Source of the DNA: Akkermansiaceae bacterium
GTDB taxonomy: Bacteria > Verrucomicrobiota > Verrucomicrobiia > Verrucomicrobiales > Akkermansiaceae
Assembly (NCBI GenBank): GCA_026421245.1
Contig: JAPKDJ010000001.1
Span: 62,001-126,000, forward strand
Reading direction: 5' to 3'
Length of the DNA: 64,000 nt
Below are positions 1 through 41,843 of the stretch, piece after piece (position 1 is the stretch's first letter; each line of letters begins with the position of its first letter). The position numbers and the translations under genes were made by a program. The notes below the pieces were generated by a model. It made no database searches. It had not been told where the DNA came from and saw only the letters and a list, made by a program, of their open reading frames with translations.

Positions 1-582
1 GCAGAGGTGGATTTTCATGTTAGGGCTGCTTGCCCACGAGACGGTCGTGCTGAAAATGAAGTTTCCGGAAATCGGGAGCTTCTTGCCTATGAATCCGGCG
101 GCATGTGAGAGCATGACTCCGTTGGTGAATTTCCATCTGTTCTCATTTGACTGGGTCCAACTATCGATTCCCTTGGGCCCCCGGTAGAGGGTTCGCTGGG
201 GGGTGACACCAAAAAAGACCGACTCGATTTGTGTTCGAGGGATTTCTAGTGCTCCGGCAAACCAGGTTTGGAATGTGAGGTGGGTTTCGCTGAGTGCCAC
301 CACCTCTCCGGGGAAGCTATCTCCGTTTTTGAGCTTGAGTTTCTGCGAGTTTTTTTCGAGTTCGCTGGTGGCGGTGTCCGCGAAGTTCAGGCGGAGGAGG
401 TCCTTGTTCAAGACATTCAAAGGAGTGTCGCTGTGGGGAGTGGCGACTTCGATGAGCCCGTCTTTTAAAGCGATCACTTTGCCAAAAAAGAGGTCTTCGT
501 TCTTCAAGGTGATTTGGTCATTCACCACAGCGCCGAAGCTGGCAGCGAAAAGGAGGGAACTTGAGAGGAGAAAGCGACGCAT
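1..582 (-). CDS. Secreted hypothetical protein, paralogue of the next gene (3' end outside window)
   Basis: The gene reads leftwards from an ATG at 580-582 and stays open for 194 codons to the window edge, so its C-terminus is missing. Residues 1-17 (MRRFLLSSSLLFAASFG) look like a signal peptide, so it is probably exported. The body resembles the neighbour at 601-2373: 'LKNGDSFPGEVVAL' matches 'LVSGDRIPGEIISL', 'LEIPRTQIESV' matches 'LTIPRTHLKSI', and both continue into 'LYRGP'/'FYTGP' followed by a Trp-containing strand. The two are therefore tandem paralogues, only 18 bp apart and probably co-transcribed. A repeated G-D-x-(I/F)-P-G-E motif suggests short beta repeats. No enzymatic motif is visible. 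The family is unknown to me; export and paralogy are the supported statements. Confidence 0.85.
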   Translation of the reverse strand, partial: MRRFLLSSSLLFAASFGAVVNDQITLKNEDLFFGKVIALKDGLIEVATPHSDTPLNVLNKDLLRLNFADTATSELEKNSQKLKLKNGDSFPGEVVALSETHLTFQTWFAGALEIPRTQIESVFFGVTPQRTLYRGPKGIDSWTQSNENRWKFTNGVMLSHAAGFIGKKLPISGNFIFSTTVSWASSPNMKIHLC

Positions 583-600
583 TGTGAGAAGGAAGTGATT

Positions 601-2373
601 TTAAAAGTCGTCGAACCAACTCGATATGTCGGGTGAAGTTTCGACGAAGCGAAGGATGTTTGCCGACTTAAGATCGACTGAAATTTTCCCAAGAAAGGGG
701 GATGTTCCCTCCAGAGTTGTCTTGGTGGCTGACGTTGGCGCGATTTGGATTCTTCCGAAGGGCTTGTAGAGGATGGTAATGGGGTCCTTTTCCCACAAAT
801 ACTTTCCGTTGGTTTCGACATCTTCGAGATCAGTCTGTGAAGCCCCTTTCAGAATGATCTTGGATAGGTCGTCAGCCGGAATTTGGACATCCGTATAGCC
901 TGTCTTGAGACGAGCAATCCCGTTTGTGATGCTGGTAAGTTCTCCCGAGAATCGATCGATGCCGTTGGTGAGCAAGACAACATCACGATCAGGGTGATTC
1001 ATACTTTTGGCGCTGTCGGTCATGCCATTCCAGCTTGTGATCGCGATATCGGAGATCTTGATCTGCGAGCTTGAGGTGTTGTTTGCGATTCCAAACCCTT
1101 TCCCCTTTCCCACATATCCTGAAAGATCATTCCACTGGGCTGCATAGTCACCATTGACAAACAACATCACAAGGGCCTCTTCACGGTTGTATCGAATTTC
1201 GATTTCGGCGTCCCCAGATTCTGAAAGTGACATACTACTGCGAGTTGTGCTGAGGCGTTGTGAGCGGGCGATTCCGGTATCGCTGAAGTCATTCCGGGAG
1301 AGGCTTGGATAGCTCGAATAGATCGTCATGGTGTAACCTGTGCCGTAAATGTCGGCGTGGGTAAGGTTCGTGGGGTTAATCCAAGGAACATTCTGGAAAC
1401 CCTCACCTTTGCGGAGGTCGAGAAGTCGTTCTTCTTTGAGAGGAGCAGGTTCTTTTTCTTCCTCTTTTGGTGCTTCGGTTTTTTTCTCCTCTTCACTCGG
1501 GGCAGGGATTACTTCGTTAGCCTCAGCTTCTTCATCCTCTTTTTCCTCTTTTTCCTCTTTTTCTGCAGGGAGAACGCGGACGAAGTCAGAGTGGAGGACG
1601 AGAGTGATGTTCAGCCGACCTTTCCACGAGGCTTTGAAGCGAATACGTCCGGCCTCAGGGAGCTCGGCATCGGGCATGATCAGTGGACGGGTGCCTAAGC
1701 TGTAGAAGGCGGCTCCAGAGTGGATCCAAGGAGAGGAGACTTCCTTTTTTTTCTCCTGTTTTTTCTTGTCCCCAACCTCTTCTGATTTCTTTTTAGCTTC
1801 CTCCTCTTTTTCCAGTTGAGCTTCGGTCTTTTTGTAGTCGAGAGTCATCCATCCAGCGCTGGTGAATGGTCCGGTGTAGAAAAGTTCGCCATCGAAGGGG
1901 TTTGGCGAGATCGATTTGAGGTGAGTGCGGGGGATGGTGAGGTTTCCTGCAACAGGGCTTTTGAGTGAAAGCGTTTTGTCATCTAACGAAATGATTTCGC
2001 CGGGGATTCGATCTCCGCTGACAAGAGTGATAAACGATGTTTTATCATCCAGGCCAACTCCCAATCCCCCTTTAAGGACGAGCTGCCGGACGCCCGGAAT
2101 TCTAAATTTGATCGGGCGGCTAATGTCGGTTCTTTCCCACAGGAGCCCTTCATCGATTCCCGAGAAAGTGCCATGCATCAGGTCCCCGTTCTCGAAAAGA
2201 AGGATGTCGCTTCCAGCGGGGTCGGGTTGAGGGAGCCCTTGCCCGCCGACTTCGGTGCTCTGCCGGGACAGCTTGTGATCGATGATGATCCCGTCCTGAC
2301 GAAGGAGAATCTCTGAACAAGCGAGGGTCGGAATCGCGGCGATGATGAATGGACTAATCCAGCGAAACTTCAT
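601..2373 (-). CDS. Secreted hypothetical protein with Lys/Glu-rich linkers and a concanavalin-like C-terminal half
   Basis: 590 residues. An N-terminal signal peptide (about 1-19, ending 'IPTLAC') may be a weak lipobox. N-terminal short repeats carry 'NGDLMHGTF' and 'SGDRIPGEI'. Two highly charged Lys/Glu linkers (about 184-212 and 270-320) interrupt the chain. The C-terminal half contains 'VMLFVNGDYAAQW' followed by 'GYVGKGKGFGIANN', a pattern seen in concanavalin/LamG-like beta-sandwich domains such as DUF1080-type proteins; this is a fold guess only. The start overlaps the stop of the upstream toroid gene by ATGA, which implies translational coupling. It is a tandem paralogue of the gene at 1-582. 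Function unknown; likely a periplasmic or surface protein. Confidence 0.85.
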   Translation of the reverse strand: MKFRWISPFIIAAIPTLACSEILLRQDGIIIDHKLSRQSTEVGGQGLPQPDPAGSDILLFENGDLMHGTFSGIDEGLLWERTDISRPIKFRIPGVRQLVLKGGLGVGLDDKTSFITLVSGDRIPGEIISLDDKTLSLKSPVAGNLTIPRTHLKSISPNPFDGELFYTGPFTSAGWMTLDYKKTEAQLEKEEEAKKKSEEVGDKKKQEKKKEVSSPWIHSGAAFYSLGTRPLIMPDAELPEAGRIRFKASWKGRLNITLVLHSDFVRVLPAEKEEKEEKEDEEAEANEVIPAPSEEEKKTEAPKEEEKEPAPLKEERLLDLRKGEGFQNVPWINPTNLTHADIYGTGYTMTIYSSYPSLSRNDFSDTGIARSQRLSTTRSSMSLSESGDAEIEIRYNREEALVMLFVNGDYAAQWNDLSGYVGKGKGFGIANNTSSSQIKISDIAITSWNGMTDSAKSMNHPDRDVVLLTNGIDRFSGELTSITNGIARLKTGYTDVQIPADDLSKIILKGASQTDLEDVETNGKYLWEKDPITILYKPFGRIQIAPTSATKTTLEGTSPFLGKISVDLKSANILRFVETSPDISSWFDDF

Positions 2374-3353
2374 TTTTCGTAAATGGGGAGAAAGCGATAA
2401 TTAAGCGCGAGAGAAAGGAGTGCTCCCGCAGTGTTGAAAGATTTTCCCCGGCTGCCCGGAAAGGAACCATCGGCACCTTGAATGGTGGAGAGGTAACGGG
2501 TGTTTTTAACATTCCATTCGTTCCAGACTTCTTCGTCCGAATGGAAAAGCGCCTGGGCCATATAATACTCGAAGTAGTAGGCGTAGTGGCGCTCGCGGTA
2601 ATTCAGATTTTTGGCAAGGTATTTGGCGCTGGCTTGATAGGGTTTCGTCTTGTGTTGTTTGGCCAATGATTCAGTGAGAACACCAATCGCGGTGAGGGTG
2701 GGGCGGTCGCCCATGGCCGATTGATATCCATAGCCCCCGTCGCTTCCCCGGCATTTACGCATGTATTTCATGCCCTTTTCAAGGGCGGTGTCTGGAACCG
2801 GAATTCCGGCATTGCGGGCGGCGTAAAGGGCGACAATCTGGCATCCTGCGATGGAAGTATCGGAGGTGGAAGCATCGGGGCTATAGCGCCAGCCGCCTTT
2901 TGGGTTTCTTTTTTGAGCACTCAGAATGAGGTCGACGGCTTTTTTTAGGGCCGGTGCGATTCGTTGATCCCGATACATTCCGTAGCATTCTGAGAGAGCA
3001 AGGGTGGCAAAACCATGGCTGTACATTGAACTTCCGATGTAGCCATTGCCCTTTTGCTGCTGTTCTAGAATGAAGTTGATACCATTCTTGATGTTTTTTG
3101 CATAGGGGCCGTGATTCGGGTCTTCTCCGTGTGCGAGGAAGGCCATCACAGCTAGCCCGACCACACCGGGCTCCGTTCCCACTCCATCAGGCCACGAACC
3201 GTCTTCCTGCTGACTGCTTGCGAGGGAGCGCAGGCCACGGGTGTAAATATTTTCAACTGCGACAGGGATGGGATCTTCCTCGCGACGAAGCGGATTTTGC
3301 CCCAAGGCGGGAAGTGCCATGGTGAGGGCTAGAATGGGGATCAAAAAACGCAT
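2370..3353 (-). CDS. Secreted squalene-cyclase/prenyltransferase-fold repeat protein
   Basis: 327 residues with a clear signal peptide (cleavage likely after 'ALPALG', about residue 18). The mature part carries several alpha-alpha toroid repeats of the terpene cyclase/protein prenyltransferase type: 'LASSQQEDGSWPDG', 'ILEQQQKGNGYIG', 'ILSAQKRNPKGGWRYSP', 'CRGSDGGYGYQ' and 'TIQGADGSFPG'. The DxDD acid motif of true squalene-hopene cyclases is not seen, and the protein is about half their length, so terpene cyclisation is unlikely. Exported proteins of this fold are frequent in PVC genomes, often beside DUF4175 or VWA proteins; their role is undefined. Its stop overlaps the next start by 4 nt. 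It sits in the middle of a leftward cassette downstream of the DUF4175-like gene. Confidence 0.85.
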   Translation of the reverse strand: MRFLIPILALTMALPALGQNPLRREEDPIPVAVENIYTRGLRSLASSQQEDGSWPDGVGTEPGVVGLAVMAFLAHGEDPNHGPYAKNIKNGINFILEQQQKGNGYIGSSMYSHGFATLALSECYGMYRDQRIAPALKKAVDLILSAQKRNPKGGWRYSPDASTSDTSIAGCQIVALYAARNAGIPVPDTALEKGMKYMRKCRGSDGGYGYQSAMGDRPTLTAIGVLTESLAKQHKTKPYQASAKYLAKNLNYRERHYAYYFEYYMAQALFHSDEEVWNEWNVKNTRYLSTIQGADGSFPGSRGKSFNTAGALLSLALNYRFLPIYEK

Positions 3354-3430
3354 GATGTGGAAGGGTGGGGAAAAGAGAGCCTGCCGGTCAAGGTCGTGAG
3401 ACAGTGGACGACAGGCCCGGGGTTTAAGTG

Positions 3431-3694
3431 TTATTTCTTTTTGGCTGTCTTGTTGTAGCCATCGAGGGCTTTTTGGAACTCAGCAGGGAGTTTGGTTCCG
3501 GACTTGCCGGCGGAGCGGGGGACACGACGTTCACCGTTCGTCTTATCCTTCGAAGCACCATTATTCTTGGTGTTCGCCGAATCAGATTCGCCTGTGTTTC
3601 CTTCACCTCCTTCTTGGGATTCGCTATCGGAGTCTTTCCCTTCCTTTTTTCCTTTGCCCATCATTTGGCCCATCATATCGAGCATGGCACCCAT
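3431..3694 (-). CDS. Small hydrophilic protein, possibly the C-terminal half of a split gene
   Basis: 87 codons starting 'MGAMLDMMGQMMG', then a low-complexity Lys/Gly/Glu/Ser stretch, then 'RRVPRSAGKSGTKLPAEF' and a basic tail. There is no signal peptide. It lies in exactly the same reading frame as the 119-residue gene at 3731-4090, separated from it by 12 codons that include two TGA stops (3731-3733 and 3713-3715). The abrupt Met-rich start and the lack of its own signal peptide suggest that it was, or still is, the C-terminal part of one exported protein. I do not recognise a named family. The reading frame is confident; independent translation is not. Confidence 0.55.
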   Translation of the reverse strand: MGAMLDMMGQMMGKGKKEGKDSDSESQEGGEGNTGESDSANTKNNGASKDKTNGERRVPRSAGKSGTKLPAEFQKALDGYNKTAKKK

Positions 3695-3730
3695 GCTCTT
3701 TTGCCGGCTTGGTCATCCGCCGGCAGATGG

Positions 3731-4090
3731 TCATTGAGACTTGGCCTTGGCCGCCTCGTAGATTTTTTCGATAATTTCAGTTTGCATGGCGATGGTATCG
3801 CCATCCGTGTCGGCATCCTCAAGTCGATCCGTGGCTTGGGCCATGAGGGTCTCGACCTGGGTCAAGAGCTCGATGACTTTGGGATTGGTTTGTTCGTCGA
3901 GAAGTTCCTGCGCATTGGCAGTCTGCTTATCTTGGTCAATGGAGACCTTTTCAGATCCTTCTTGATGTTTGACCAGTGCCTTGGCCTTTTCGGCTTCGGT
4001 TGGTTTCTTCGCCTCCTCCTTTGCGGGATCGGCAAAGCCGGTCGCAAGGAGCCCCGCCGAAGCGAGTGCGGTGAGTAGGGTTGCTTTCAT
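3731..4090 (-). CDS. Small secreted helical protein, possibly the N-terminal half of a split gene
   Basis: 119 residues. Residues 1-20 form a signal peptide ending 'LLATGFA'. The rest is predicted mostly helical and acidic, with 'QELLDEQTNPKVIELLTQ' followed by 'LEDADTDGDTIAMQTEII'. It begins 30 bp after the DUF4175-like gene and ends at TGA 3731-3733. The following in-frame segment (3431-3694) would extend it by about 99 residues if the two TGA codons were read through. Between the stops, the +1 frame encodes a plausible hydrophilic linker ('DHLPADDQAGK'), so two compensating indels are another explanation. Function unknown; context suggests an envelope partner of the DUF4175-like protein. 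Confidence 0.65.
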   Translation of the reverse strand: MKATLLTALASAGLLATGFADPAKEEAKKPTEAEKAKALVKHQEGSEKVSIDQDKQTANAQELLDEQTNPKVIELLTQVETLMAQATDRLEDADTDGDTIAMQTEIIEKIYEAAKAKSQ

Positions 4091-4120
4091 AGATTTATTG
4101 GTTCTTTGGTTGGGAATGGA

Positions 4121-6892
4121 TTAGGGGGTTTGCTTGGTCAGCTTTAATGAACGGAGCATTTGTTCCAGTGAACGAGTGCGAGAACGGATATCTTGCTCGG
4201 CCTGAACCATGCGCATGACTTTAAGCATGAATTCAAAGTCCTGCTCTTCGGGGCTGCCACCACCACCACCACCTCCGCCGCCACCTCCGCCGTCAGGCTT
4301 GGGGCCTTCCAGTTTCTCTGCCCAGCCTTTAAGGGTTTTTGACCATTTTTTGGCGAGGCGGGTTGAGACAAAGGTTCGATTTCTAAGAATCTCTCTGCGA
4401 AGCTGCTCGAGCTTTTCGTCGATGAGAGACTTATACATCTCATCATAAACCTCCTTGTGAATGGGTTTTTGAGTGCGGGCGTAGAATCGCTCCAGATCCT
4501 CCTTAATCCACCGGACATCGATGGTGGTCTTACTCTGCTGCTTTCCGAGTTCTTTGAGAAGACGGGCGTGGATCGGATCGATGTCGTCGCTTCCCGGAGC
4601 TGCTCCAAGAATAGGGAGGACGGCCTCCTCGTCTTCTCCCCGGAAAGCAGAGGTAAGAGCGGTGACAATCCCACCTTCTTCCGTGGAGGCACGCTTGAGG
4701 CGATTGACAAAGGTGGAGGCTTCAAAATTTTCGTTCGCCTGGTTGGTCTTTTCGATGGTCTCCTGCATCTTTTTAAGAGCTTCTTTCTGCTTCTCGATGG
4801 CATCCTTGAGATCTTGTTCGGTTTTTTCCGGAGTGGATTTTTGATCTTGAGCTTCGCCTAGTTTTTTAGCGACTTCGGGCATGTCCTCCTCGCCAAGTTC
4901 CTTCATGTTTTTGAGAGCATCAGCCATGTCCTTCATGGTCTTGTCATCGAGTTCACCGTTTCGGGCCGCGTCCTTGAAGATTTCCTCCATCTTCTTGGCA
5001 ATTTCCTTCATCTTCTCGGCGTTCTTGGCTTCCTCTTCCTGGCTCTTGGCGAGTTTCTCCTTGCCGTCTTCTTCCTGAAGTTCTTCGGCGGTCTTTGTTT
5101 TGTCGAGACGCTCGTTCTCGTCGAGGTTGTTCATCTCATTGCGTGCGGCATCTTCCAGTTCGCTAATGACACGGTCGAAGCGACTCTTGATGATTTGGGC
5201 ATGCTCGTCGCGAGTGAGGATGTAGATCGTGATGGGCTCGGAGTAGACACGGCCGCGGCCCGGCTTGTAGTCCTCGGTGTAGGCAGAGAGGAGGAGCTGT
5301 TGAGGCTCGATTCCGTAGGTTTGAGGTGAAAAAATGACCTGGTCACCAAGGCGAACAGAAGACGGGGAGCCTTTTTTTAAAGTGATCGAACCTTCCGCAG
5401 GCTTTCCTTCGGACGGTTTGGTGAATTCGCCCTTCCAAGATAGTCCGATTTCCTTGAGTCCAAAGTCGTCCTCGTTCAGGATTTCAAATTCCAGAGTCTG
5501 CTCAGCGAGAATGACGATGTTTCGTTCGATCCCCTGAATGTAGGACGAGGGTACCATGTCTTCGTTGGTTTCGATTTTGACTTGGAAGGAGCCTGCTCCA
5601 TCAAGGCCTTTGATGTCCTTCCAGGTGAAGGGGATTTCTACGTGGAATTTACCGAGTGCGACGGGCTCGCTTGAGACGGTATTCCCCGAGATGGAAACGG
5701 TGAGGTCACGGGCGTCTGGAAGTTTGGAGGCTTCGGCAAGCTCTTTGGCCTTTTTCTCGGTCTCAGCTTCGGCGGCCTCAATGTCGTCCGGGGTATCGGC
5801 TTCGATGGGAGCATCCGGACCTTCCAGTGGGAGGTCGTCAAGTGGCTCCGGAGTAAAGTGAGCGGTGGCGGAAGCAATCTCGCGGGAAAAAGTGCCTTTT
5901 AGGATGACTTTGCTGCCCTCAAGTGCGGTGAGCGCGCCGGTTCGGATATCCATGTTCCGGGGTTCCAGCTGAAGGTAGTCAGGGAGAGTGACAAGGGCTT
6001 CGAAGCCTTCGACTTCAGGGCGGGTTTCAGGCTCAACGCGGATTTTGTGAGTGGCGTCTCCAGCTGCGATGGTGATGCGGTCCCGAGCTTCCTGTCCGGC
6101 AAAGTCAAAGCGGTAGGTGCCATCTTCTTCAAGTTTGGCGTCGATCCAGTCTTGCAGGCCATAGCGGGCACGGGCGGTTTCTGGTTTTTCATCGCTGCCT
6201 TCTTTTAGTGGAGCTTCAAAGGTAAAGGCCTCTCCGAGGGGCACGACCATTGGGTTGGGCATCCTATCGAGATCAAACTGGGTGAAGGTGTAGTGCTCTG
6301 TGTCCGAAAGTGGCATGAGCCAGCGCTTGAGGGCATTGCCTCCGGCCTTTGGGGCGAGGGAGAATCCAAGAACCACGGCCGCAATTCCGACAGCGACTCC
6401 AATCCCGAGTTTTTTGTGGCGTGAGTAAGGGAGCGCCTGGTTCATGTCACGCTTTGCGGCCTGATTGGCAACGTGGATCATGGCGGCTTCGCGAAGTTCG
6501 GGAGAGAGAGCTTCCTCTGCTTCGTGTTGATCCTGAAGTTCGACGATACCAAGAAGTCGGTCACCCAGCTTGGGGAACTTTTTGGAAATCAGTCTGGCGA
6601 GTTGCTCTTCACGGCGATGACCATAGACCCAGCGACGAACCCAGTAGGGGGCAAAGACTGCAGCAAGCGAGGTTCCCGCGAGAAGGATGCCCAAGCGGGC
6701 CAGAGGAGGAAGAGGGAAAAAGCGCTCAAGAATGAAGACGATCAGGAAAGAAATCAGAAGTCCAAAAATGCCTGCCAGAACAGCTTCGGTGATCTTGATC
6801 CTCCAAAGGGCCTTTTGAAAATCTGCCAACTGATTGCGCAGATCCTTCGGAATGGCGATTTGTTCTTGAAGGGAAGGGGGGGCGTCAGACAT
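4121..6892 (-). CDS. DUF4175-like large membrane protein with coiled coil and poly-Gly tract
   Basis: 923 residues. Two transmembrane helices lie near the N-terminus (about 36-56 and 64-84), a short cytoplasmic helical region follows, and a third helix (about 162-180) leads into a large presumably periplasmic domain. A long charged coiled coil spans about 565-720 ('KEKLAKSQEEEAKNAEKMKE' type sequence). Twelve consecutive Gly residues occur near the C-terminus (codons around 4256-4293). The layout fits the DUF4175/TIGR02302-type families found in PVC bacteria and Proteobacteria; this assignment is from overall pattern, not a search. It is the first gene of the leftward cassette, opposite ftsZ across a 340-bp gap. 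No enzymatic motif is visible. A structural or scaffolding envelope role is an inference. Confidence 0.75.
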   Translation of the reverse strand: MSDAPPSLQEQIAIPKDLRNQLADFQKALWRIKITEAVLAGIFGLLISFLIVFILERFFPLPPLARLGILLAGTSLAAVFAPYWVRRWVYGHRREEQLARLISKKFPKLGDRLLGIVELQDQHEAEEALSPELREAAMIHVANQAAKRDMNQALPYSRHKKLGIGVAVGIAAVVLGFSLAPKAGGNALKRWLMPLSDTEHYTFTQFDLDRMPNPMVVPLGEAFTFEAPLKEGSDEKPETARARYGLQDWIDAKLEEDGTYRFDFAGQEARDRITIAAGDATHKIRVEPETRPEVEGFEALVTLPDYLQLEPRNMDIRTGALTALEGSKVILKGTFSREIASATAHFTPEPLDDLPLEGPDAPIEADTPDDIEAAEAETEKKAKELAEASKLPDARDLTVSISGNTVSSEPVALGKFHVEIPFTWKDIKGLDGAGSFQVKIETNEDMVPSSYIQGIERNIVILAEQTLEFEILNEDDFGLKEIGLSWKGEFTKPSEGKPAEGSITLKKGSPSSVRLGDQVIFSPQTYGIEPQQLLLSAYTEDYKPGRGRVYSEPITIYILTRDEHAQIIKSRFDRVISELEDAARNEMNNLDENERLDKTKTAEELQEEDGKEKLAKSQEEEAKNAEKMKEIAKKMEEIFKDAARNGELDDKTMKDMADALKNMKELGEEDMPEVAKKLGEAQDQKSTPEKTEQDLKDAIEKQKEALKKMQETIEKTNQANENFEASTFVNRLKRASTEEGGIVTALTSAFRGEDEEAVLPILGAAPGSDDIDPIHARLLKELGKQQSKTTIDVRWIKEDLERFYARTQKPIHKEVYDEMYKSLIDEKLEQLRREILRNRTFVSTRLAKKWSKTLKGWAEKLEGPKPDGGGGGGGGGGGGSPEEQDFEFMLKVMRMVQAEQDIRSRTRSLEQMLRSLKLTKQTP

Positions 6893-7232: not shown

Positions 7233-8672
7233 ATGATTGAATACCCCCGAAATCGACAACAAACCATTCCCGAAAGCTCCGTAAAAATCGTAGGTCTTGG
7301 AGGTGCCGGATCAAATATGCTGGACCGCGTTGCGCTTGATGGAATCGAGGGTGCAGAGCTTCTTTCCTTGAATACTGATGTCCGAACGCTGGCCAGCACG
7401 GTCGCAGCAGAAAAAATTCAGTTGGGGCGTAATTTAACCAAAGGTCTTGGTGCCGGTGGCGATCCCGAGCTTGGTGAAAAAGCCATTCTTGAAGCTGAGG
7501 ACGAGATTCGAGATTCCCTTCGCGATCGTCAGATTGTTTTTGTTTGTGTTGGTCTTGGTGGTGGAACGGGCTCGGGCGCGGCCCCCATCGTGGTCAGACT
7601 GGCTCGCGAGGCCGGAGCGTTTGTGGTCGTTTTTGCCACTATGCCCTTTGCTTTTGAGGGCCGCCGCAGGCGCATGCAGGCGGAAGAGTCACTCAATCAA
7701 CTCGCTGTTCTTGCGAATGCCCTTGTCACCTTCGACAACGGCCGCATGGGTGAGCTGGTCCTTCCGAAGCAAGGGGTGCACGAAGCGTTCTCCGCTGCCG
7801 ATCGGATGATTTCCGATAGTATCACCGCTGTCGCCCGACTCGTTCTTCGTCCTGGCTTGATCAATGTAGGGCTGGACGAATTGATGTCCGCCCTGAAAAC
7901 TAACCGTTCACGTTGTCTCTTCGGTTCCGGGTTGGGACGTGGCGAAAACCGCGCGCAATCTGCTCTTAAGGCCGCTCTTAATAGTCCGCTTCTGGATCGT
8001 GGATCCCTTTTGGGTGATGCCACTACTGTGCTTGTTCACATTTGTGGTGGGGATGACATGACACTTTATGAGGTCGAATTACTTATGCAGGGGTTGACCA
8101 AATTTATCCCGGATGACGCCCACCTTCTTTTCGGAGCTGCCACCGATTCTCAGATGAAGGATGCCCTAAGTGTGACCATCATCAGTGCACTTCCGGAGGA
8201 GCGGCTTCAAGCGCTTCCGGTTTTTGATGAGACCGATGAGCCCGAAGTGATCGAAATCGAAGGGCTCGAAGAAGAGCTAGCGGAAGAAGCTGCCGCTTCT
8301 GCGGTCGAAGAAGAGCGAGAGAAAGAAGAGCCAGAGGGGCTCGAAGATGAGGCCCCCGAGGACATCGTGGAATTTGAAGTTGATGAAGAGGTCGTCGAAG
8401 AAGAGGAAGACATTGAAATCGAAGATGAAGAAATCGATGACTTTGCAGCACCGGATTTGAAGATTGTCGCTGAAATCGAGGAGGACACTCCCGAGGCTAA
8501 AGATCTCGAGTCGGAAGCAGCTTCTCCTAAAAAGGCTCCCGGCAATCAAGGTGAGCTTCTTCTCGATGGGGCGCCAAAAGGGCGCTTCGATGGAGAAAAG
8601 CCAAATGCGGTGAAGGACGGAGAGGACCTGGACATCCCGCCTTACCTCCGTCGTCGCGGACGTCGTCGCTAG
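7233..8672 (+). CDS. ftsZ: Cell division GTPase FtsZ with altered T7 loop and long acidic linker
   Basis: 479 residues, tubulin-like. The nucleotide-binding half is canonical: 'GLGGAGSNMLDR' (21-32), 'NTD' (47-49) and the tubulin signature 'GGGTGSGAAP' (109-118), then 'PFAFEGRRR'. The T7 loop, which normally reads N-x-D-F-A-D and supplies the catalytic aspartates to the next subunit, here reads N-V-G-L-D-E (211-216), so the two usual Asp positions are Gly and Glu. A very acidic linker (about 330-430) leads to 'DLDIPPYLRRRGRRR', which matches the conserved FtsA/ZipA-binding tail (LDIPxFLR) with an added basic end. It stands outside a division cluster; ribF follows 19 bp downstream. It polymerises at midcell in other bacteria. 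Whether a second ftsZ exists elsewhere cannot be seen here. Confidence 0.95.
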   Translation: MIEYPRNRQQTIPESSVKIVGLGGAGSNMLDRVALDGIEGAELLSLNTDVRTLASTVAAEKIQLGRNLTKGLGAGGDPELGEKAILEAEDEIRDSLRDRQIVFVCVGLGGGTGSGAAPIVVRLAREAGAFVVVFATMPFAFEGRRRRMQAEESLNQLAVLANALVTFDNGRMGELVLPKQGVHEAFSAADRMISDSITAVARLVLRPGLINVGLDELMSALKTNRSRCLFGSGLGRGENRAQSALKAALNSPLLDRGSLLGDATTVLVHICGGDDMTLYEVELLMQGLTKFIPDDAHLLFGAATDSQMKDALSVTIISALPEERLQALPVFDETDEPEVIEIEGLEEELAEEAAASAVEEEREKEEPEGLEDEAPEDIVEFEVDEEVVEEEEDIEIEDEEIDDFAAPDLKIVAEIEEDTPEAKDLESEAASPKKAPGNQGELLLDGAPKGRFDGEKPNAVKDGEDLDIPPYLRRRGRRR

Positions 8673-31351: not shown

Positions 31352-34300
31352 CTATGGTGCGGAAACGATCCGCACGCGATAGAATCTGCGGACTTCGTCG
31401 GGTGTGATGGAGAGGGACTCCTGAAGTTCGTTCCCTGCCACAGTGACGGAGCTTCCAGTGAGATTGGTGTTACTCCAGGTGGCCAAATCATCTGAACTTT
31501 GAATCTGCCAAGTGACTTCATTAGCGAAAGGGTTGCGGGTAAAGTTCAGCGAGAGACTATTTCCAGATGTGCTGATCGAAACCGGGTTTTCACTAGCAAG
31601 TGCCGGATTGGTGCCGAAGAAATATTCGGCAAGATTTGTGAGTCCATCTTCATCGTCATCACCATTGGGCTCGCCAGGGTAGAGGACATCAGGAAGTCCG
31701 GGATTTCCTCCTGAGATATCCGAGGCTTTCCAGCTGGTGGGGAGCCCGTGATTTGGATTCGAGAGGGGATCGACGAGCACCAGTGATGTTCCAAGGCCAT
31801 CGGCACTGGGGGGCCAACCTAGACTTGCGTCGTCATCGTAGTCGAAGCTTTGGATTAAGCTGTTATCGTTGGCAGCGAGGATGATGGTCTCGCCACCGTT
31901 TGAGAAGCTGCTCTCAAAGTTTCCGGGAGCTAGCAAGAAACCGCTTTCCCCATAGGATGCGATAAAGGTATCGCGATCCCTGGTGATGACGGTCCGTTGG
32001 AGGGGTTGCAGAACAAAGCCCGCGGGGAAGGTGTAAAGGATTCCATCGGTAAAGCTGACGTTGGTGAGGTCAAGAGTCAGTTCGGGGTTGATGTTGAGAA
32101 TCTCGATGAACTCAAGATTTTCATCAGGTCCCTGGGGATTATACATGATCTCGGAGACAACAATGCCTCCGGAGGAGGCGGGAGTCCCTACGATAAAATC
32201 TGCTTCGCGGAGGGCCGACCATTCGCCATTTGACAGGGTTCGTGATTTAACGATTCCGGTCTGCGTGAGATTGACAACATTTCCTCCCAGGGCATTTTTT
32301 CGTTCGATGACTGACATCTGGATTCCGAGATCCGAATTACCTGGGGAGAAGTTGTGCAATTCCACGGCAATGGTGTTTGTTCCCTCTTGAAGCTCGCCGG
32401 GAGCCAGAGAGTAATTAAAAATGACGGGCTCGGATTCAGAGTCGGCAGGGCCAAAATCGGAGTAGTTGACCACGGGGTTTGTAAAGTTATCGCGGTGGAT
32501 TTCACGGCCATTCAAGTAAACGATCATGGCGTCATCACGGATGATGTTAAAAATCAATTCGGGGATATCGATGGCGTCGGCGACCTGAAAATCCTTCCGG
32601 AAGTAGACAGTGGGATAGGCTCTGCCAAAGGGTCCAATGTTTAGAATGGTGTTGGGCGTGGGAATGCCGGTGACCGCGTTGGCCAACCGCCCAGCAAGTG
32701 GTCCTTGTGCTCCATTTGGGTTGATTGCGGGATCCGGTGCCCAAGTGTTGTCATGAAAGGCAGGGTGTTTCCAGTCATCTGTGCCATACGAGGGGTTTTC
32801 AACCACAACATTGCTCGGGGATAGTGCGGTGGTGCCGGTGAGGTAAGTCCAGCCGAAGTCATTGATTCCGACGATCTCTGTTTCGATAAATCCACCAAAG
32901 GTGCCGGCCGTCGGGTTAACGCTACCTCCGGAAAGGCGGGGGTCCGAACCATCCGAGGTGAAGTAGACAGCCCCATCAGGAGTGGTCAGTTGAAGCGGGA
33001 AGTTCATGGGAACGACCCCCCCAAATTGTGAATACTGGGGAGGGTCAATGGAGGGATAAAGCTTCTGTCCTCGGAGTTCCCGAATGAATGCCCGAGAGTT
33101 GTCGAGATCGTGAAGAGTGGGGAGGTAATTGTCGGTGATATTTTCAATTTCCTTCACCCAGTGTTGCTCTCGGGTGAAGTAGATGGGGGAGTTGATGGTG
33201 GGTGGGTAGTGGTCGCTGTTGATGTTTGCGCTACTCGACGGGGTGTTCCCATACGGGGTGGAAGCTTGGACATCACCCCAGCGGGCTGACTCGGCAACGA
33301 TGGCCTTGTCGATTTGGTTGTTGATTTCAAGAAAGCTTAGAATGGTGTTTTCCACCGTGAGAGCGCCATCATCATGAAGATGTTTGTAGACGCGGTCTGC
33401 GAAGAGCATTTTAAAATCGTCATTCCGACGAAGACGCTGGAAAGGCAGCATGCCGGTTCGTGAATCGTTGTAGCGATTCCAGGAATACTTATCGAAAGCG
33501 ATTTCCTGGTCCCAGACGTTAAAACGATAACGGCCATCTCCGCTGAGAGCGTTGGCCGCAGCATAAGAGTTTTTGGTAGGCCAATCTTCGGAGTCGCCAA
33601 AGAGGTGAAGGATGACCCAATCGGCATAGTTTTCGACATCGATTTTGGTCTTGGCGGTTTCGTAGACGGCGGGGCTTGAAACGCCGCTACCCAGAGTGGA
33701 AAGCATGGAGTTCCAAAGTGGCCCGGGAGAGCCAAGGTCGGCGTTGACCTCCCAGTCTTCTTTGTTTCCACCGAGGTGATCGGCGTAAAAGTCATCTTCA
33801 ACTCGTTCACTCAGATTATGAAGCCCAAAGTAGGCTCCGTTGACGTAAAGGTGGATGAAGTTACCATAAGATGAGGGTTGTCCCATATCACGGAAGAGTT
33901 CCTTCATCCAAACATCACGGGTGTAGAGCGAGTCGTTTGGGCGGTAACGGGCGGAACTCCACGAGGCAAGAGCCCAAGAGTCGGTAAAGCATGCCCTAAG
34001 AACGAGCTTGTTAAATTCATCGACCGGAGATTCCGGGAAAAGGTTGTATTTTAGTTTCCCAATTCCAACGGATGAAGAAAAGGTGAGGCGGAGGGAATGC
34101 TTTTGCATCCGGTTTGGAGTCCGGGAGGAGTTACCGTGTGTTTCGATTTTGCAGTCTTCCTGGAACCCCCGGCTCCCATCCGGGAGGATGTATTCCACCG
34201 AGCAGATCCGTTCAAAGCGGTCGCGAGGAGTGCCATAAAGGCTCTTGGGTGATGTGGAGGTTCCGGTGCGGGTTGTGACAAAATCCTCCTGCTTCATGGT

Positions 34301-35665
34301 GAGGGATACGCTGGGAATATCGAGAAGGGCATCTCGAATCGTGTATCCCGGGGAGCGCAGATTCAAGGTGTCATTGACGACCCGTGGATCCATGTCGTAG
34401 TCGGCCGGAATGACCCGTCGGACCTGGCCGTCATAGCCCCAATTTTCGGCCCAGCCGTTGGCGATGAGGTCTGCTGAGTTCTGGGTCGCGACGTCGTCGA
34501 CAAAGATGTAACTGTGGGTGTCGACGTTTGTGGGGATGAGATCTCGTGAATCGAAGACGGCGATGGCGCGAACATTTGTGGTGGTATCGATGGTAATGGG
34601 ACCAGAGTAGGTTGTTCCGTTTGTGAGTGTTGGGAGCGATCCATCGAGGGTGTATCGAATGGTGGCTTCTCTGGTTTGACAGGTAATTTTGAGTTCGAAG
34701 GGGGCATCGTAAAAGCCCCGGTCGAAGCTGAAGTTGGTGTCTTTCACAACTCCGGGAGCGCCTGTTCCAATATTTGCAGCACCGGGGGTGGGTGATGAAA
34801 AAAAGCGCCGGCCTCCACCCCTCGACGGCCGGCCGTAGGAAATGTCGGTGAATTGTTCGGGGTAGGCGGGGCGAATAATGTCTTCGATGAATTCTCCGTC
34901 GGGATTGACCAGGGCAAGGTATTCGCCCGAGTTCGAGAGCCGGAAGTTGGTATGGGGATTTCCGGCCGGGTCGGTGAGGTTATCGCCCGAGGCAAAAATG
35001 ATCCGATACCCCCGTATCCCAATACTGACTGCGGGGAAGGCCCACTTTGTTGGGGTCTCCACGTCATCTGTCAGATAATACCCGGAAAGAGCGATAGAGG
35101 TGGAATTTGGGTTGTAGATCTCGATCCAATCGGACCGGCTTCCATTACCATCTTCAAATCCGGTTTCGTTGCTGACGGAAATCTCATTGATTTCCAGGGG
35201 CAGGAGACCGTCAGGTTTCTCGGCCGCGCTGTTGGGATTGGTTTTTTTTACCAATTCCACCCGGTCATTGAAGCTGTCGTTGTCGCTGTCTTCATCGTTG
35301 GGGTTTGTGATGGCTCCCATCGCTCCGGTGACCTCTGCTCCATCGAGTCGTCCGTCGGCATCGCTGTCAGGGTTGAGAGGGTCGGTTCCGGTATCAGTCG
35401 CGGAGGTGAAAGTGCCATTCCCGGTTTCGAGATGGTCTTGAAGTCCGTCGTCGTCCGTGTCGGCTTTTGTTGGATTTGTTCCCACAGTTTGTTCGGCAAG
35501 GTTGTCCAGGCCGTCGGCATCGGGATTTGCGGATCCGGTGGTGGTTTCGAGAGTGAGGAAGTAGGTGAGTTCCCACGAATCATCAAGACTATCGCTGTCA
35601 GAATCGATAAACACTTGGCCGTTTAGGACGGCAATGAGCGGGAAAAAAAAGAGGAGAAATTTCAT
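31352..35665 (-). CDS. Giant secreted protein with Ca-binding repeats, lamin-tail and CotH domains
   Basis: 1437 residues. A signal peptide (about 1-16) is followed by thrombospondin-type-3-like Asp-rich repeats ('DSDSDSLDDSW', 'DTDDDGLQDHLETG', 'PDSDADGRLDGAE'), then a lamin-tail domain ('EINEISVSNETGFEDGNG', 'WIEIYNPNSTSIALSGYYLT'), a chitobiase-type C-terminal strand ('TIRYTLDGSLPT'), and a CotH-like domain (about 430-830, 'HLYVNGAYFGLHNLSERV', 'FNVWDQEIAFDK'). A second lamin-tail domain and a C-terminal 'WQIQSSDDLATW...RRFYRVRI' segment follow. CotH proteins are atypical kinases; activity here is unproven. It is 18 bp downstream of a longer paralogue. Likely on the cell surface or released. 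Confidence 0.88.
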   Translation of the reverse strand: MKFLLFFFPLIAVLNGQVFIDSDSDSLDDSWELTYFLTLETTTGSANPDADGLDNLAEQTVGTNPTKADTDDDGLQDHLETGNGTFTSATDTGTDPLNPDSDADGRLDGAEVTGAMGAITNPNDEDSDNDSFNDRVELVKKTNPNSAAEKPDGLLPLEINEISVSNETGFEDGNGSRSDWIEIYNPNSTSIALSGYYLTDDVETPTKWAFPAVSIGIRGYRIIFASGDNLTDPAGNPHTNFRLSNSGEYLALVNPDGEFIEDIIRPAYPEQFTDISYGRPSRGGGRRFFSSPTPGAANIGTGAPGVVKDTNFSFDRGFYDAPFELKITCQTREATIRYTLDGSLPTLTNGTTYSGPITIDTTTNVRAIAVFDSRDLIPTNVDTHSYIFVDDVATQNSADLIANGWAENWGYDGQVRRVIPADYDMDPRVVNDTLNLRSPGYTIRDALLDIPSVSLTMKQEDFVTTRTGTSTSPKSLYGTPRDRFERICSVEYILPDGSRGFQEDCKIETHGNSSRTPNRMQKHSLRLTFSSSVGIGKLKYNLFPESPVDEFNKLVLRACFTDSWALASWSSARYRPNDSLYTRDVWMKELFRDMGQPSSYGNFIHLYVNGAYFGLHNLSERVEDDFYADHLGGNKEDWEVNADLGSPGPLWNSMLSTLGSGVSSPAVYETAKTKIDVENYADWVILHLFGDSEDWPTKNSYAAANALSGDGRYRFNVWDQEIAFDKYSWNRYNDSRTGMLPFQRLRRNDDFKMLFADRVYKHLHDDGALTVENTILSFLEINNQIDKAIVAESARWGDVQASTPYGNTPSSSANINSDHYPPTINSPIYFTREQHWVKEIENITDNYLPTLHDLDNSRAFIRELRGQKLYPSIDPPQYSQFGGVVPMNFPLQLTTPDGAVYFTSDGSDPRLSGGSVNPTAGTFGGFIETEIVGINDFGWTYLTGTTALSPSNVVVENPSYGTDDWKHPAFHDNTWAPDPAINPNGAQGPLAGRLANAVTGIPTPNTILNIGPFGRAYPTVYFRKDFQVADAIDIPELIFNIIRDDAMIVYLNGREIHRDNFTNPVVNYSDFGPADSESEPVIFNYSLAPGELQEGTNTIAVELHNFSPGNSDLGIQMSVIERKNALGGNVVNLTQTGIVKSRTLSNGEWSALREADFIVGTPASSGGIVVSEIMYNPQGPDENLEFIEILNINPELTLDLTNVSFTDGILYTFPAGFVLQPLQRTVITRDRDTFIASYGESGFLLAPGNFESSFSNGGETIILAANDNSLIQSFDYDDDASLGWPPSADGLGTSLVLVDPLSNPNHGLPTSWKASDISGGNPGLPDVLYPGEPNGDDDEDGLTNLAEYFFGTNPALASENPVSISTSGNSLSLNFTRNPFANEVTWQIQSSDDLATWSNTNLTGSSVTVAGNELQESLSITPDEVRRFYRVRIVSAP

Positions 35666-35683
35666 AGGTGCTGGTGCCGAAAA

Positions 35684-38600
35684 TTAAAGGGCGCGGGCGC
35701 GAAGTCTCCAAAAGACTTTTGAGTTAGTCGTGAGGTCGATCATGAACTCGTTGGTCTGAATGGAGCCTGAGACCCCGTTGGGAGTTGTTTGTTCTGTGGT
35801 CCAGTTTTCGAGGTCATCCGAGGTTTGGAACTCAAGAACGAAGCCAGAACGTCCGAGGTGGGAAGAGAAGGTGATTGCGCCTGTGCTTCCGGTAATCTGA
35901 AGAGGTGGAAGTTCATCCCGCGAGTTTGGATCGGTTCCCATTGCAAATTCGAGGAGGTTGGAGAGATCATCCCCATCGGGGTCCATTTCCCCACTTCCGA
36001 CACTGTTGATGGAAGCCCACCCAGCGTAGTCTTCAGATTCAGGAATACTTCCGGGTGTGGGGGAGGCGGCATTCCAGGAGTTGGCAAAGTTTCCGAAGGC
36101 AAGAGAGGCATTGCGATTCAGGGACGACTTTCCGTTCGCTGCCGGCCATGGGGATTCAGATATGTATCGTACTTCATCGACCGTAATCTGGCCAAATTCT
36201 GGAGTGGCTCCAGCCATTTGAAGCCGGACAGTACCACGGTCGTCATCTAAAGGGCCATCAGTGGCCGGTCCGATCAGAAACACCGATCCGTCGATGCCAA
36301 AATTGGTCCGGAAGTCAGCTGATAGAGCTGTTTCGATCGCTGGATCAAAGCTCACGATGACGATCGATTGTCCGGCGGGAATGGAGTGATTAGTAGTGAA
36401 GTCAAAATCAAAACCGCCACGGAGTTTCCATTGATCAAGAGCGATGGTGGCACTCCCATTGTTGGTGAGTTCGACGAACTCATAATGGGTCGAGGTCGTG
36501 GGAGCATAATGAACTTCAGAGATCAAGACCGGGCCTAAAACGGGGCCGCTATTCGGTCCCCCTTTGGTTTCATTTGTCATGGTGACGAGTGTGTTGTAGC
36601 CCATTCCATCGAACCATCGACCGAGGGTCGTGTTTTGCGCTGCTGCTGCAAATTCGACGTGGTCGACAAAGGCAACGGGGTTTCCTGCCGCGTCTGTTTG
36701 AAGGAGCCAAAGATCATCGCCATTATTGCCGCTGATTCCAAAAGATCGTCCTTTCTGCCAATTCCCCTTGGTCGGGTGGTTGTCGAGGAAGAGCACATCA
36801 ATCGTAAATTTGTTCTCATTGATGACAGTGACTTCAAAACTCGAATTAAAATCCGAGAAGCCACCGTAACCTTCGATGCTCATCAGATCGCCGGTGGTCA
36901 GGCCGTGATTGTTACTGGAGATCAGGGTGGGAGCTGCACCCGAGGCACCCGAGTAGTTGGAGATGGTATTGGTCAAAGGGGCATCGTATTCGGCGCCGTG
37001 GAAGACCAGATATTCCATTCCCGGAAGGGTTGCCGCGGGAATCGTGTAAGAGCGATAAACGTCCTTCGAATCGGTTAGGAGCCAACCTCCAATGTCGATA
37101 GGGGAAGCCGTCGTATTGTAGACTTCGATGGAGTCGCTGACTGAATTGCTGGAGACTTCATTGATGACAATGCGTTGGTCGTTGATCAAGCCCGCTGAAC
37201 CAGGAGACCCATGGAAGGAAACGCTGGGGGCCCAGTTGCGAGGATCGCCGGAGTTTCCGGATGGATCGATGATCTCGAGGGAAGATCCCGCACCATCAGG
37301 TCTGGAAGGCCACGCTCCGGTGTCGCTAAAAGCCAGAGATTTCATGAGCCTGCCCTCGCTATCAATTAAGGAGAGGGGCTCGCCATCGTTGTCGAGGCCA
37401 CCGGAGAATGTTCCGGCGATGGAATCTGCCAAGCCGCTTCCATATCGACTCACGAAGGCTGTTTCATCTCGGACAAGAAGAGCTCTTTCTCCAGCCTCGA
37501 GAACAAAAAGTCCAAATTTGAAAGTGATGCCATTTGAGAAGGATGCATTTGCGAGATTGATGGGATCGCTTCCGATGTTAAGAAGTTCGATGAATTCAAA
37601 CTGATCGCGGTTTTCAATCTCAAGTGGCGAAGCATTGTTCTTTTCAATCAAAGTGGCTTCGCGCGGGTGGTAATTAATTTCCGCAATCGCAAGGTTTTCG
37701 GCATTGGCGGCTTCTTCGATCAGAAACGTTCCATTAACGGGAGCCGACCAGTCATCACCTGTTTGTAAACGAGCGATGATATTTGCAGATTCTCCTAGGT
37801 CGATGCTGGTCAATCCGGCGGGACGGGTGAGGTCCAGAGCAACATCAAGTCCGAGGTCGCTACTACCGGCGGATCTGTTGTGAACTTCCACCGACAATAC
37901 GTTGGCTCCCTCAAGAAGTTGCCCTTGAGCGAGATTATGAGTGTGCAAGAGAGTTATAGTTTCATTGGCGTTGCTTTCCGCAAAGTCGCCAAAGAGAACC
38001 GTCCCTGATTTCATGTTCTCTCGGTAAATCTCATGCCCATTGAGATAAACGATGACGCCATCATCTCGAATGATGGAGAGGTCCAACGATGTCACTTCGG
38101 AGGCATTAGAAATATTAAACTCTTTTCTGAAATACACGGTAGGGTAACCATTTCCCAGCGGTCCGATGTTAATCGTGGTGTTTGCTGTGACAGAGCCAAC
38201 GGAGGTAGGAGTGCGACCACCAATGAGCCCCTGTCCGGGTGACCAGGTTAGGTCGGCGAAATCGGGGTGTTTCCAGTCGCTTGAGTTGTAGAAAGCATTT
38301 CCAACGACGGCATCACTGGGCGACTGGGCGACTACTCCTGAGAGGTAACGCCATCCGGCTGACTCGAAGGGGAAGACGGGTTCAGTGCTGAAACCGGATG
38401 AGATGCTCAGGGCGGCAGGATTGACCGAACCGTCGGGGAGAAGGGGATCACTTCCATCAAGGGTGTAGGAGATGACTCCGTCGTTACCATTGACGGTAAG
38501 GGTTGCGCCATCTCCGACAAAGCCACCTTCGGCAGGCTGACCGTTGATCGCGAACGAAGGCGTGTTGACTGTTGGGTAGAGGCCAGCGGTTTTAAGCTTG

Positions 38601-40711: not shown

Positions 40712-40804
40712 GAAGAGGAATGACAGTTCCAAATCTACCTCGCCGTCAGCCTCGATAAACAAAAAAGAAGCACAAGGCTCCTTTCTTTCAGTTGGAAATG
40801 GTTC

Positions 40805-40822
40805 AGTGATCCCCTGATCACT
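40805..40822. other. Perfect hairpin over the amidase stop codon
   Basis: AGTGATC (40805-40811) and GATCACT (40816-40822) pair perfectly around a CCCT loop; the amidase TGA lies inside the stem. A T-rich run follows only on the plus strand, where there is no gene to end. It may slow transcription between the amidase and the giant genes or protect the mRNA 3' end. Confidence 0.4.
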
Positions 40823-41843
40823 TCTTTTTGGCCGTTTTATTTTGGCGCAAAGTCGCTTGGCGATAGAAGAATATGGCTTCTCCAATAGCGTTGGCGAGAG
40901 TGGTTTGATACGTTTGGGTGTTAATGAGATGCTTCTCTTTTGGGTGACTCAGGAAGCCTCCTTCGAAAAGAATGGCAGGATGCTTCACCCCGGTGAGGAC
41001 ACTGTAGCGGGCCCGGCGAACACCTCGATCGGGGACATTCATCTTGGCCTTGTTGAGGCGTTGTAAGCTGTTCCAGTGAACGGCTGTTGCAAGAGCGATA
41101 TTCGCGGAATCCTGGGCGTTCCCCTCTCGGCTGATAAGGTCGGAGCTCTTAAGCGAGCGGCCATAGTGAGCCACGCCAACAGGGGAGAGGGTGAAAGTTT
41201 CGATGCCTCTTGCTTGGGTTCTTCCAGTGGAACCAGCGGAATTGAAATGAATGCTTACGAAGATGGCGTTCTTATATTTGTTGGCGAGAGCCACCCGTTG
41301 TTGGAGTGTGAGGAAGATGTCGGAATTCCTTGTCATGACGACCTTGAATCCTCGCTTTTGAAGGCGATCACGAAGAAGACGGGCTACATTCAGATTATAT
41401 CCAGCTTCCGTTCCGAGTGAGTTCACGGCTCCCGGGTCACGTCCCCCGTGTCCTGGATCGATGATGACAGTCTCGAAAGCCTTGGCTCCTTCGATCTTGT
41501 AGGGACGGAGAACGGGATCGACGATTTTGAGTAAATCGGTGACGGACATATGGTAGCCTCCAAGTGCGACGATGCCGTGGCTGAAAATAAATTTCACGTC
41601 ATTCATCAGCACTTCCTGGCCGCCCGCGCGGAATTTTAGCGTCAAATCGGAGTTTTTAAGAATGATCTTGTTCCCAGATAGGGTCATGCTTGTCAGATTG
41701 TAAAAATCCTTCACCTGGCTGAGTGGGACATATTTGTTTCCCCGGTGTTCCTTAATTTTCCATTCAATCTGTTTTGCTCCAGCCGGAAGGAGGGCCAGAA
41801 CAAGGAAGAGGAGGATATTGCGTAGGATTGCGGGGGACCTCAT
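40818..41843 (-). CDS. N-acetylmuramoyl-L-alanine amidase (Amidase_3)
   Basis: 341 residues with a signal peptide (about 1-23, 'LLFLVLALLPAGA'). A short N-terminal domain like the copper-amine-oxidase N-terminal/AMIN type ('NKYVPLSQVKDFYNLTSM') precedes the zinc amidase fold: 'VIIDPGHGGRDPGAVN' (first His ligand), the Glu ligand in 'GTEAGYNLNVARLL', 'FVSIHFNSAGST' (second His) and 'ILFEGGFLSHPKE' (catalytic Glu). It cleaves the bond between MurNAc and the peptide stem in the periplasm, as in daughter-cell separation or wall turnover. It is the first gene before the two giant surface proteins; 106 bp separate them, so co-transcription is possible but unproven. Confidence 0.93.
   Translation of the reverse strand: MRSPAILRNILLFLVLALLPAGAKQIEWKIKEHRGNKYVPLSQVKDFYNLTSMTLSGNKIILKNSDLTLKFRAGGQEVLMNDVKFIFSHGIVALGGYHMSVTDLLKIVDPVLRPYKIEGAKAFETVIIDPGHGGRDPGAVNSLGTEAGYNLNVARLLRDRLQKRGFKVVMTRNSDIFLTLQQRVALANKYKNAIFVSIHFNSAGSTGRTQARGIETFTLSPVGVAHYGRSLKSSDLISREGNAQDSANIALATAVHWNSLQRLNKAKMNVPDRGVRRARYSVLTGVKHPAILFEGGFLSHPKEKHLINTQTYQTTLANAIGEAIFFYRQATLRQNKTAKKK

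Follow-up and report, generated by a model that had tools for sequence, protein, structure and literature searches.

The window analysed here, a stretch of 64,000 nucleotides from an Akkermansiaceae bacterium (genome G000, at G000:C68:62001-126000), opens with a cassette of leftward genes encoding a large D4175-like membrane protein (the anchor), a small exported protein, an exported alpha/alpha-toroid protein and a series of exported paralogues. The leftward genes proposed in the first-pass annotation (4121-6892, 3731-4090, 2370-3353, 601-2373 and 1-582) were all found where it had placed them. Its description of the second as a complete gene for a "small secreted helix protein" was mistaken, as these 119 residues are the front of a 219-residue frame with two TGA codons, and the UGA feature had been missed. 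Conventional open reading frames (ORFs) at this small gene, both on the minus strand, encode an exported product of 119 residues (3731-4090) and a second product of 87 residues (3431-3694). The two ORFs share one frame with the two TGA codons between them.

The interrupted small gene and its hairpin

A total of 128 loci of the small gene were compared, with some genomes counted twice. Relatives fall into two kinds, some with a single ORF of about 200-250 codons and others with the identical frame broken by one or two TGA codons. Interruption was found in 64 of the 128 loci, by 83 TGA codons and not a single TAA or TAG, with a frame offset of 0 in all 128; the TGA-bearing genes themselves terminate at TAA (18), TAG (12) or TGA (12). 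The read-through protein aligns over its length with the uninterrupted homologues, and it also matches the C-terminal portion of the membrane proteins found in other families (hhalign 99.7%, E 2e-26, 171 columns), a profile homology which identifies the small gene as a detached tail of the anchor. The linker that carries the interruption has a conserved helical part before it and a Met-rich helix and the PxEF..ALDxYN tail after it. The linker codons following the TGA display a pN/pS of 0.47, with silent sites changing more than replacement sites, as fits a translated linker. The read-through protein has no match in NCBIfam or Pfam. Two other origins of the gap were considered and rejected: a mobile repeat inserted in the small gene, as the 91-nt junction is present once in the genome, and ribosomal bypassing, which the CAA flanking the gap in the window had suggested but which would need a landing codon to match the take-off codon, whereas relatives such as L102 and L108 have no such pair.

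Minimal bacterial selenocysteine insertion sequences (SECIS) consist of a hairpin of 5-6 bp with an invariant loop guanosine, located a few nucleotides after the UGA (PMC4607533). In the small gene, a predicted hairpin likewise lies immediately downstream of the UGA and carries a guanosine in its apical loop. The proximal UGA is followed by a spacer of 14 nt and then an 8-bp stem closed by a loop of GU and a third base (G, U or C), such that the loop starts 22 nt after the UGA, a spacing observed in 40 of 44 distinct TGA-bearing sequences. Three codons with their third base in the stem or loop are locked in 44/44 sequences each, these being RGC (AGC or GGC), GGT and NCC. Elsewhere in these genes GGT serves for only 115 of 688 Gly codons (17%), and NCC is constant although the encoded residue varies between Ala, Ser and Pro. 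Stem cells are paired at 97.3%, and six sequences have AU in place of GC as the outermost pair. Run over 1.36 Mb of related loci, a covariance model of the element recovers this site alone at E below 1e-3. No Rfam family matches the hairpin. In L107 (species group of L200 and G348), a close relative of the window genome, the Sec (selenocysteine) machinery is present, the UGA has been lost and the linker is Ser-rich; this TGA-free gene retains a weakened copy of the hairpin in which the GGT of the loop is now GGA.

The spacing of the predicted Sec residues differs between groups. It is U-x5-U in the window group, U-x2-U in L226 and U-x3-U in L228, with U-x2-C in L189 and L190, and others bear a single U, often within GGTUPxSGM. 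The SelB-free relative L246 has one Cys in the linker, and Cys also occurs in L179.

Selenocysteine machinery and probable novelty of the family

The window genome encodes a tRNA-Sec with anticodon UCA and a SelB scoring 299.5 bits against a curated cut-off of 242. SelB was detected at the strict threshold in 61 of 260 genomes of the family, with seven more found among 20 that were rechecked. Matches to tRNA-Sec were counted at 50 bits or more; the Rfam tRNA-Sec matches near 45-48 bits in SelB-free genera were set aside as background and are probably tRNA-Ser, like most of the lower-scoring matches checked in the window genome. By these measures, SelB or tRNA-Sec is present in 43 of 44 TGA-bearing genomes. 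Those lacking a SelB match are G343 and G298, both incomplete and with tRNA-Sec present, and G349; G322 has SelB with a tRNA match at background level only. On a tree built from 61 small proteins, the machinery is present in every one of the 38 TGA-bearing rows and in 11 further rows with no TGA; the 12 machinery-free rows form one supported sister clade devoid of TGA. A sign test on independent pairs from this tree had too little power. As judged by open-frame lengths in other family members, no listed genome of the SelB-free genera looks interrupted except G234, where the contig ends inside the gene.

An inventory of prokaryotic selenoproteins comprises 119 families and subfamilies, and its table includes the families of Haft and Tolstoy 2025, drawn from selenoprotein neighbourhoods (PMC13188914). 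No family among these 119 corresponds to the small gene, and searches of open-access literature yielded no report of selenoproteins in this group of bacteria. Judged from sequence, the small gene very probably represents a new selenoprotein family, absent from that inventory, Pfam and NCBIfam alike. It shares with known bacterial selenoproteins an in-frame UGA, a downstream hairpin with an invariant loop G (PMC4607533), and SelB and tRNA-Sec in the genome, but differs in that the predicted Sec resides in the Ser/Gly-rich linker of an exported, non-thioredoxin protein and is rarely replaced by Cys.

The cassette and its MoxR context

Matches to the membrane protein occur in 40 of 141 genomes of the class, and the order of membrane protein, toroid and exported paralogues recurs in loci from those 40 genomes, across the class. 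With the toroid profile, 80 named loci were collected, and counts of flanking genes were limited to loci with enough flanking sequence. At least two exported paralogues follow in 61 of 61 such loci (three in 52), and the membrane protein lies upstream in 58 of 66. Conservation of the neighbourhood beyond this strain, on which the first-pass annotation had staked its proposal, is thus borne out, as is the ATGA overlap it saw between the toroid and 590-residue genes (2370-2373 in the window), which recurs in 49 of the 80 named relatives. Its pair of secreted paralogues are indeed related exported proteins, although they number three, the third (461 residues) lying beyond the window; the three are mutually related, with an E of about 1e-11 for the weakest pair. 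Eight loci (L122, L129, L134, L142, L143, L147, L149 and L150) have the toroid and exported paralogues with no recognisable D4175-like gene upstream, where mostly other genes of 300-450 codons are found.

Table 1. Features of the cassette, with positions in the window unless a locus is named
Feature	Position	Strand	Remarks
D4175-like membrane protein, 923 aa	4121..6892	-	ORF; three predicted transmembrane helices, two Ig-like beta domains, long coiled coil
Predicted selenoprotein, 219 residues, Sec at 120 and 126, N-terminal signal peptide	3431..4090	-	two TGA in a single frame
First in-frame TGA (Sec 120)	3731..3733	-	40 nt before hairpin loop
Second in-frame TGA (Sec 126)	3713..3715	-	22 nt before hairpin loop
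Possible second hairpin GCCGGC-N10-GCCGGC around second TGA	3703..3724	-	limited to close relatives of the window
Predicted SECIS hairpin GAGCAUGG-GUG-CCAUGCUC, invariant GU in loop	3680..3698	-	
Exported alpha/alpha-toroid protein, 327 aa, conserved C-terminus NYRFLPIYE	2370..3353	-	
Exported paralogue 1, 590 aa	601..2373	-	starts in ATGA overlap with toroid gene
Exported paralogue 2, 432 aa	1..582	-	cut by window edge; complete at L002:11284-12582
Exported paralogue 3, 461 aa	L002:9870-11255		next after paralogue 2, beyond window

The model of the anchor (pLDDT 83.8, pTM 0.55) combines transmembrane helices with a pair of Ig-like domains and a long helical coiled coil. The earlier label "DUF4175-like" survives as a remote likeness only: the window protein has no Pfam match, and the homologue in L048 matches PF13779 at E 0.009 with 14.5 bits, below the gathering score of 27.3. 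Membership of DUF4175 was rejected, since neither protein reaches that score, although the anchor resembles DUF4175 proteins in being large with N-terminal transmembrane helices. Foldseek matches of the anchor to complement and alpha-2-macroglobulin involve the Ig-like domains only (TM about 0.1) and were not counted as homology. The toroid matches squalene-cyclase and prenyltransferase folds weakly (Pfam E 2.5e-6; E 1e-6 to 1e-9 across Pfam, NCBIfam and PDB sequences) and its sequence contains no DxDD motif, so the fold named in the first-pass annotation holds at the level of a weak match, and its statement that a cyclase motif is lacking agrees with the sequence. It was not assigned to the squalene-hopene cyclases, given its 327 residues, the partial coverage of the profiles and the missing DxDD. 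Compared with these cyclases and prenyltransferases it is half the length and bears a strongly conserved signature of its own (MYxHGF, WRYSP and NYRFLPIYE). In the model of the 590-residue paralogue (pLDDT 77.8), small beta barrels, SH3/Sm-like in appearance, flank a concanavalin/CBM66-like jelly roll, and the most interpretable PDB match of this central domain is the carbohydrate-binding module CBM66 (TM 0.68 on the target). Further Foldseek matches to toxin binding domains (TM 0.17-0.28, 6-10% identity) were discounted as they share the lectin-type jelly roll only.

In families outside Akkermansiaceae, genes for MoxR, DUF58, BatA and a vWA/GATase1-like protein precede the cassette in most loci that reach that far, and genes of this MoxR side stand directly before the D4175 gene in about a dozen loci (e.g. 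L048, L051, L054, L055 and L060). The window genome keeps its MoxR, DUF58, BatA and vWA genes together on another contig (C103, L088), with no membrane protein behind them. The cassette holds up as a genuine envelope module, related to MoxR and conserved in Verrucomicrobiota, and the proposal of a new envelope complex with no assigned function was only half right, as elsewhere the cassette forms the distal half of the known ATPase-driven MoxR-DUF58-BatA-vWA envelope/assembly module. On balance, its products plausibly form a MoxR-linked envelope complex. In Akkermansia (L038-L043, L063-L065, L175 and L176), the place held by BatA and vWA in other families, ahead of the membrane protein, is taken by an unassigned tandem pair of paralogous genes, each of about 700 codons (cluster c6). 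MoxR genes above cut-off number 13 in the window genome, and DUF58 genes 10; there are also further D4175-like proteins next to MoxR (C142 and C54) and next to a toroid (C24, L066), so that this kind of module occurs more than once there.

A MoxR operon is known from Rhizobium leguminosarum (RL3499-RL3502), in which RL3499, the MoxR member, contributes to membrane integrity and morphology (PMC3893208). With respect to MoxR-DUF58-BatA-vWA (Bat/MRP-type) operons generally, the likeness lies in the D4175-toroid-paralogue block directly behind them in other families of the class, and the difference in the placement of the two halves on separate contigs in the window genome. To our knowledge, the toroid, the exported paralogues and the selenoprotein are additions unknown from the MoxR-type operons described.

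Beside the cassette, divergent genes for FtsZ and RibF (7233-8672) are retained in the close relatives L101-L109, L111 and L112 and not in other genera. Farther into the window, two neighbouring, very large exported proteins of 1437 and 1733 residues with repeated similar domains are encoded at 31352-40885.

Competing explanations and the proposed role

Comparison across loci and genomes establishes the conservation of the small gene, its single frame, interruption by UGA only, the locked hairpin, the presence of the Sec machinery and the homology of tail and anchor. From this comparative evidence we infer that Sec is actually incorporated, and decoding of the UGA codons as Sec is held to be highly probable. 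Several observations weigh against this reading or its MoxR setting. There is little covariation within the stem, as the protein sequence fixes most of its bases, and the pair-count control (a) stands at only 11-18 of 500 shuffles. Compared with synonymous recodings, the fold energy gives a mean z of only -1.4 (versus -0.24 in TGA-free homologues), since the protein sequence itself favours the hairpin, and the first UGA of the window gene is farther from the loop than usual, at 40 nt. The TGA-bearing G349, a metagenome-assembled genome that is 88% complete, yielded neither SelB nor tRNA-Sec. As TGA and machinery are both clustered on the tree, their association reflects few independent events (at least 3 well-supported changes). 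Most TGA-free homologues place Gln, Gly or Ser at the Sec position and not Cys, which is unusual for selenoproteins and suggests that Sec is dispensable or not catalytic. Lastly, the MoxR-DUF58-BatA-vWA operon does not adjoin the cassette in the window genome. Sec seems helpful but dispensable, which would suit a function in a flexible linker, through redox chemistry, cross-linking or metal contacts, better than it would suit catalysis.

Were the locus to encode two proteins, translation would stop at the UGA and restart at the ATG of MGAML to give a secreted product of 119 residues and an independent cytoplasmic one of 85, and an ATG does lie 6 codons past the proximal TGA in most TGA-bearing sequences. 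This ATG, however, falls within the conserved hairpin, and TGA accounts for 83 of 83 interruptions with no frame drift, though the genes' own terminators use all three stops. Moreover, the second part has no export signal, whereas its homologue, the C-terminus of the membrane protein, lies outside by predicted topology. Together with the in-frame evolution of the linker codons and the strict link to SelB and tRNA-Sec, these features make two separate products very unlikely. UGA-C is a leaky stop context, and the C that follows TGA in 43 of 54 distinct cases, along with the hairpin downstream, would suit programmed read-through by a near-cognate ordinary tRNA helped by both elements. Neither the restriction to genera with SelB and tRNA-Sec nor an invariant GU loop at SECIS-like spacing would be expected from such a mechanism, which consequently retains very little credence. 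All TGA-bearing genomes known by name are metagenome-assembled, as might be anticipated if the TGA codons were recent nonsense mutations of a decaying gene or assembly errors, but the codons recur in 44 distinct sequences and at least four genera, where coding is conserved downstream and synonymous sites are locked, which renders decay or artefact next to negligible.

A stronger rival, though still an unlikely one, concerns the cassette as a whole, where the toroid and jelly-roll proteins would make up a surface system for binding substrates or handling glycans, with no relation to MoxR function, and the UGA would act mainly as a selenium-dependent length switch. The CBM66-like central domain of the 590-residue paralogue is in keeping with such a system, as are the frequent replacement of Sec by residues other than Cys and the detachment of the MoxR half in Akkermansiaceae. 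The dozen or so loci of other families with MoxR-side genes directly before the D4175 gene speak for the link to MoxR, and a residual function of the short form is putative.

The favoured explanation, an envelope assembly with a Sec-bearing detached tail, is considered likely as a whole. The cassette would encode an inner-membrane/periplasmic assembly anchored by the D4175-like protein, and the position of the gene for this protein directly behind MoxR, DUF58, BatA and vWA in other families makes a MoxR AAA+ ATPase the probable agent of its remodelling or maturation. In Akkermansiaceae, the anchor has shed its C-terminal tail, which is now exported as a protein in its own right with some 220 residues, and in the Sec-using genera the tail gene carries one or two UGA codons in its flexible linker. 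SelB and tRNA-Sec, guided by the 8-bp GU-loop hairpin, would read these codons as Sec to give a full-length selenoprotein, while selenium shortage would give the 119-residue part only. A redox or metal role for the Sec-bearing linker is a tentative proposal that the odds do not quite favour. As a best guess, the selenol may form reversible diselenide, selenenyl-sulphide or metal contacts, through which the link of the tail to the complex would respond to oxidation. More doubtful is the specific notion that an envelope machine driven by MoxR contains a redox switch dependent on selenium, in which paired Sec residues (U-x5-U, U-x2-U, U-x2-C) sit in the flexible linker of the detached tail and oxidation or selenium supply decides whether that tail is intact or joined to the complex.

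Should the redox-switch reading prove true, the small gene would exemplify a type of selenoprotein without a thioredoxin-like fold. If the favoured explanation is right, a selenoprotein family has so far been annotated as a truncated small protein and an orphan ORF. It would tie the use of selenium to a MoxR-type envelope system in Verrucomicrobiota, with Sec placed in a linker and not in a thioredoxin-like active site. The finding would then bear on two matters, namely the targets of MoxR/Bat-type operons, and what maintains Sec at sites where Cys is not its substitute.

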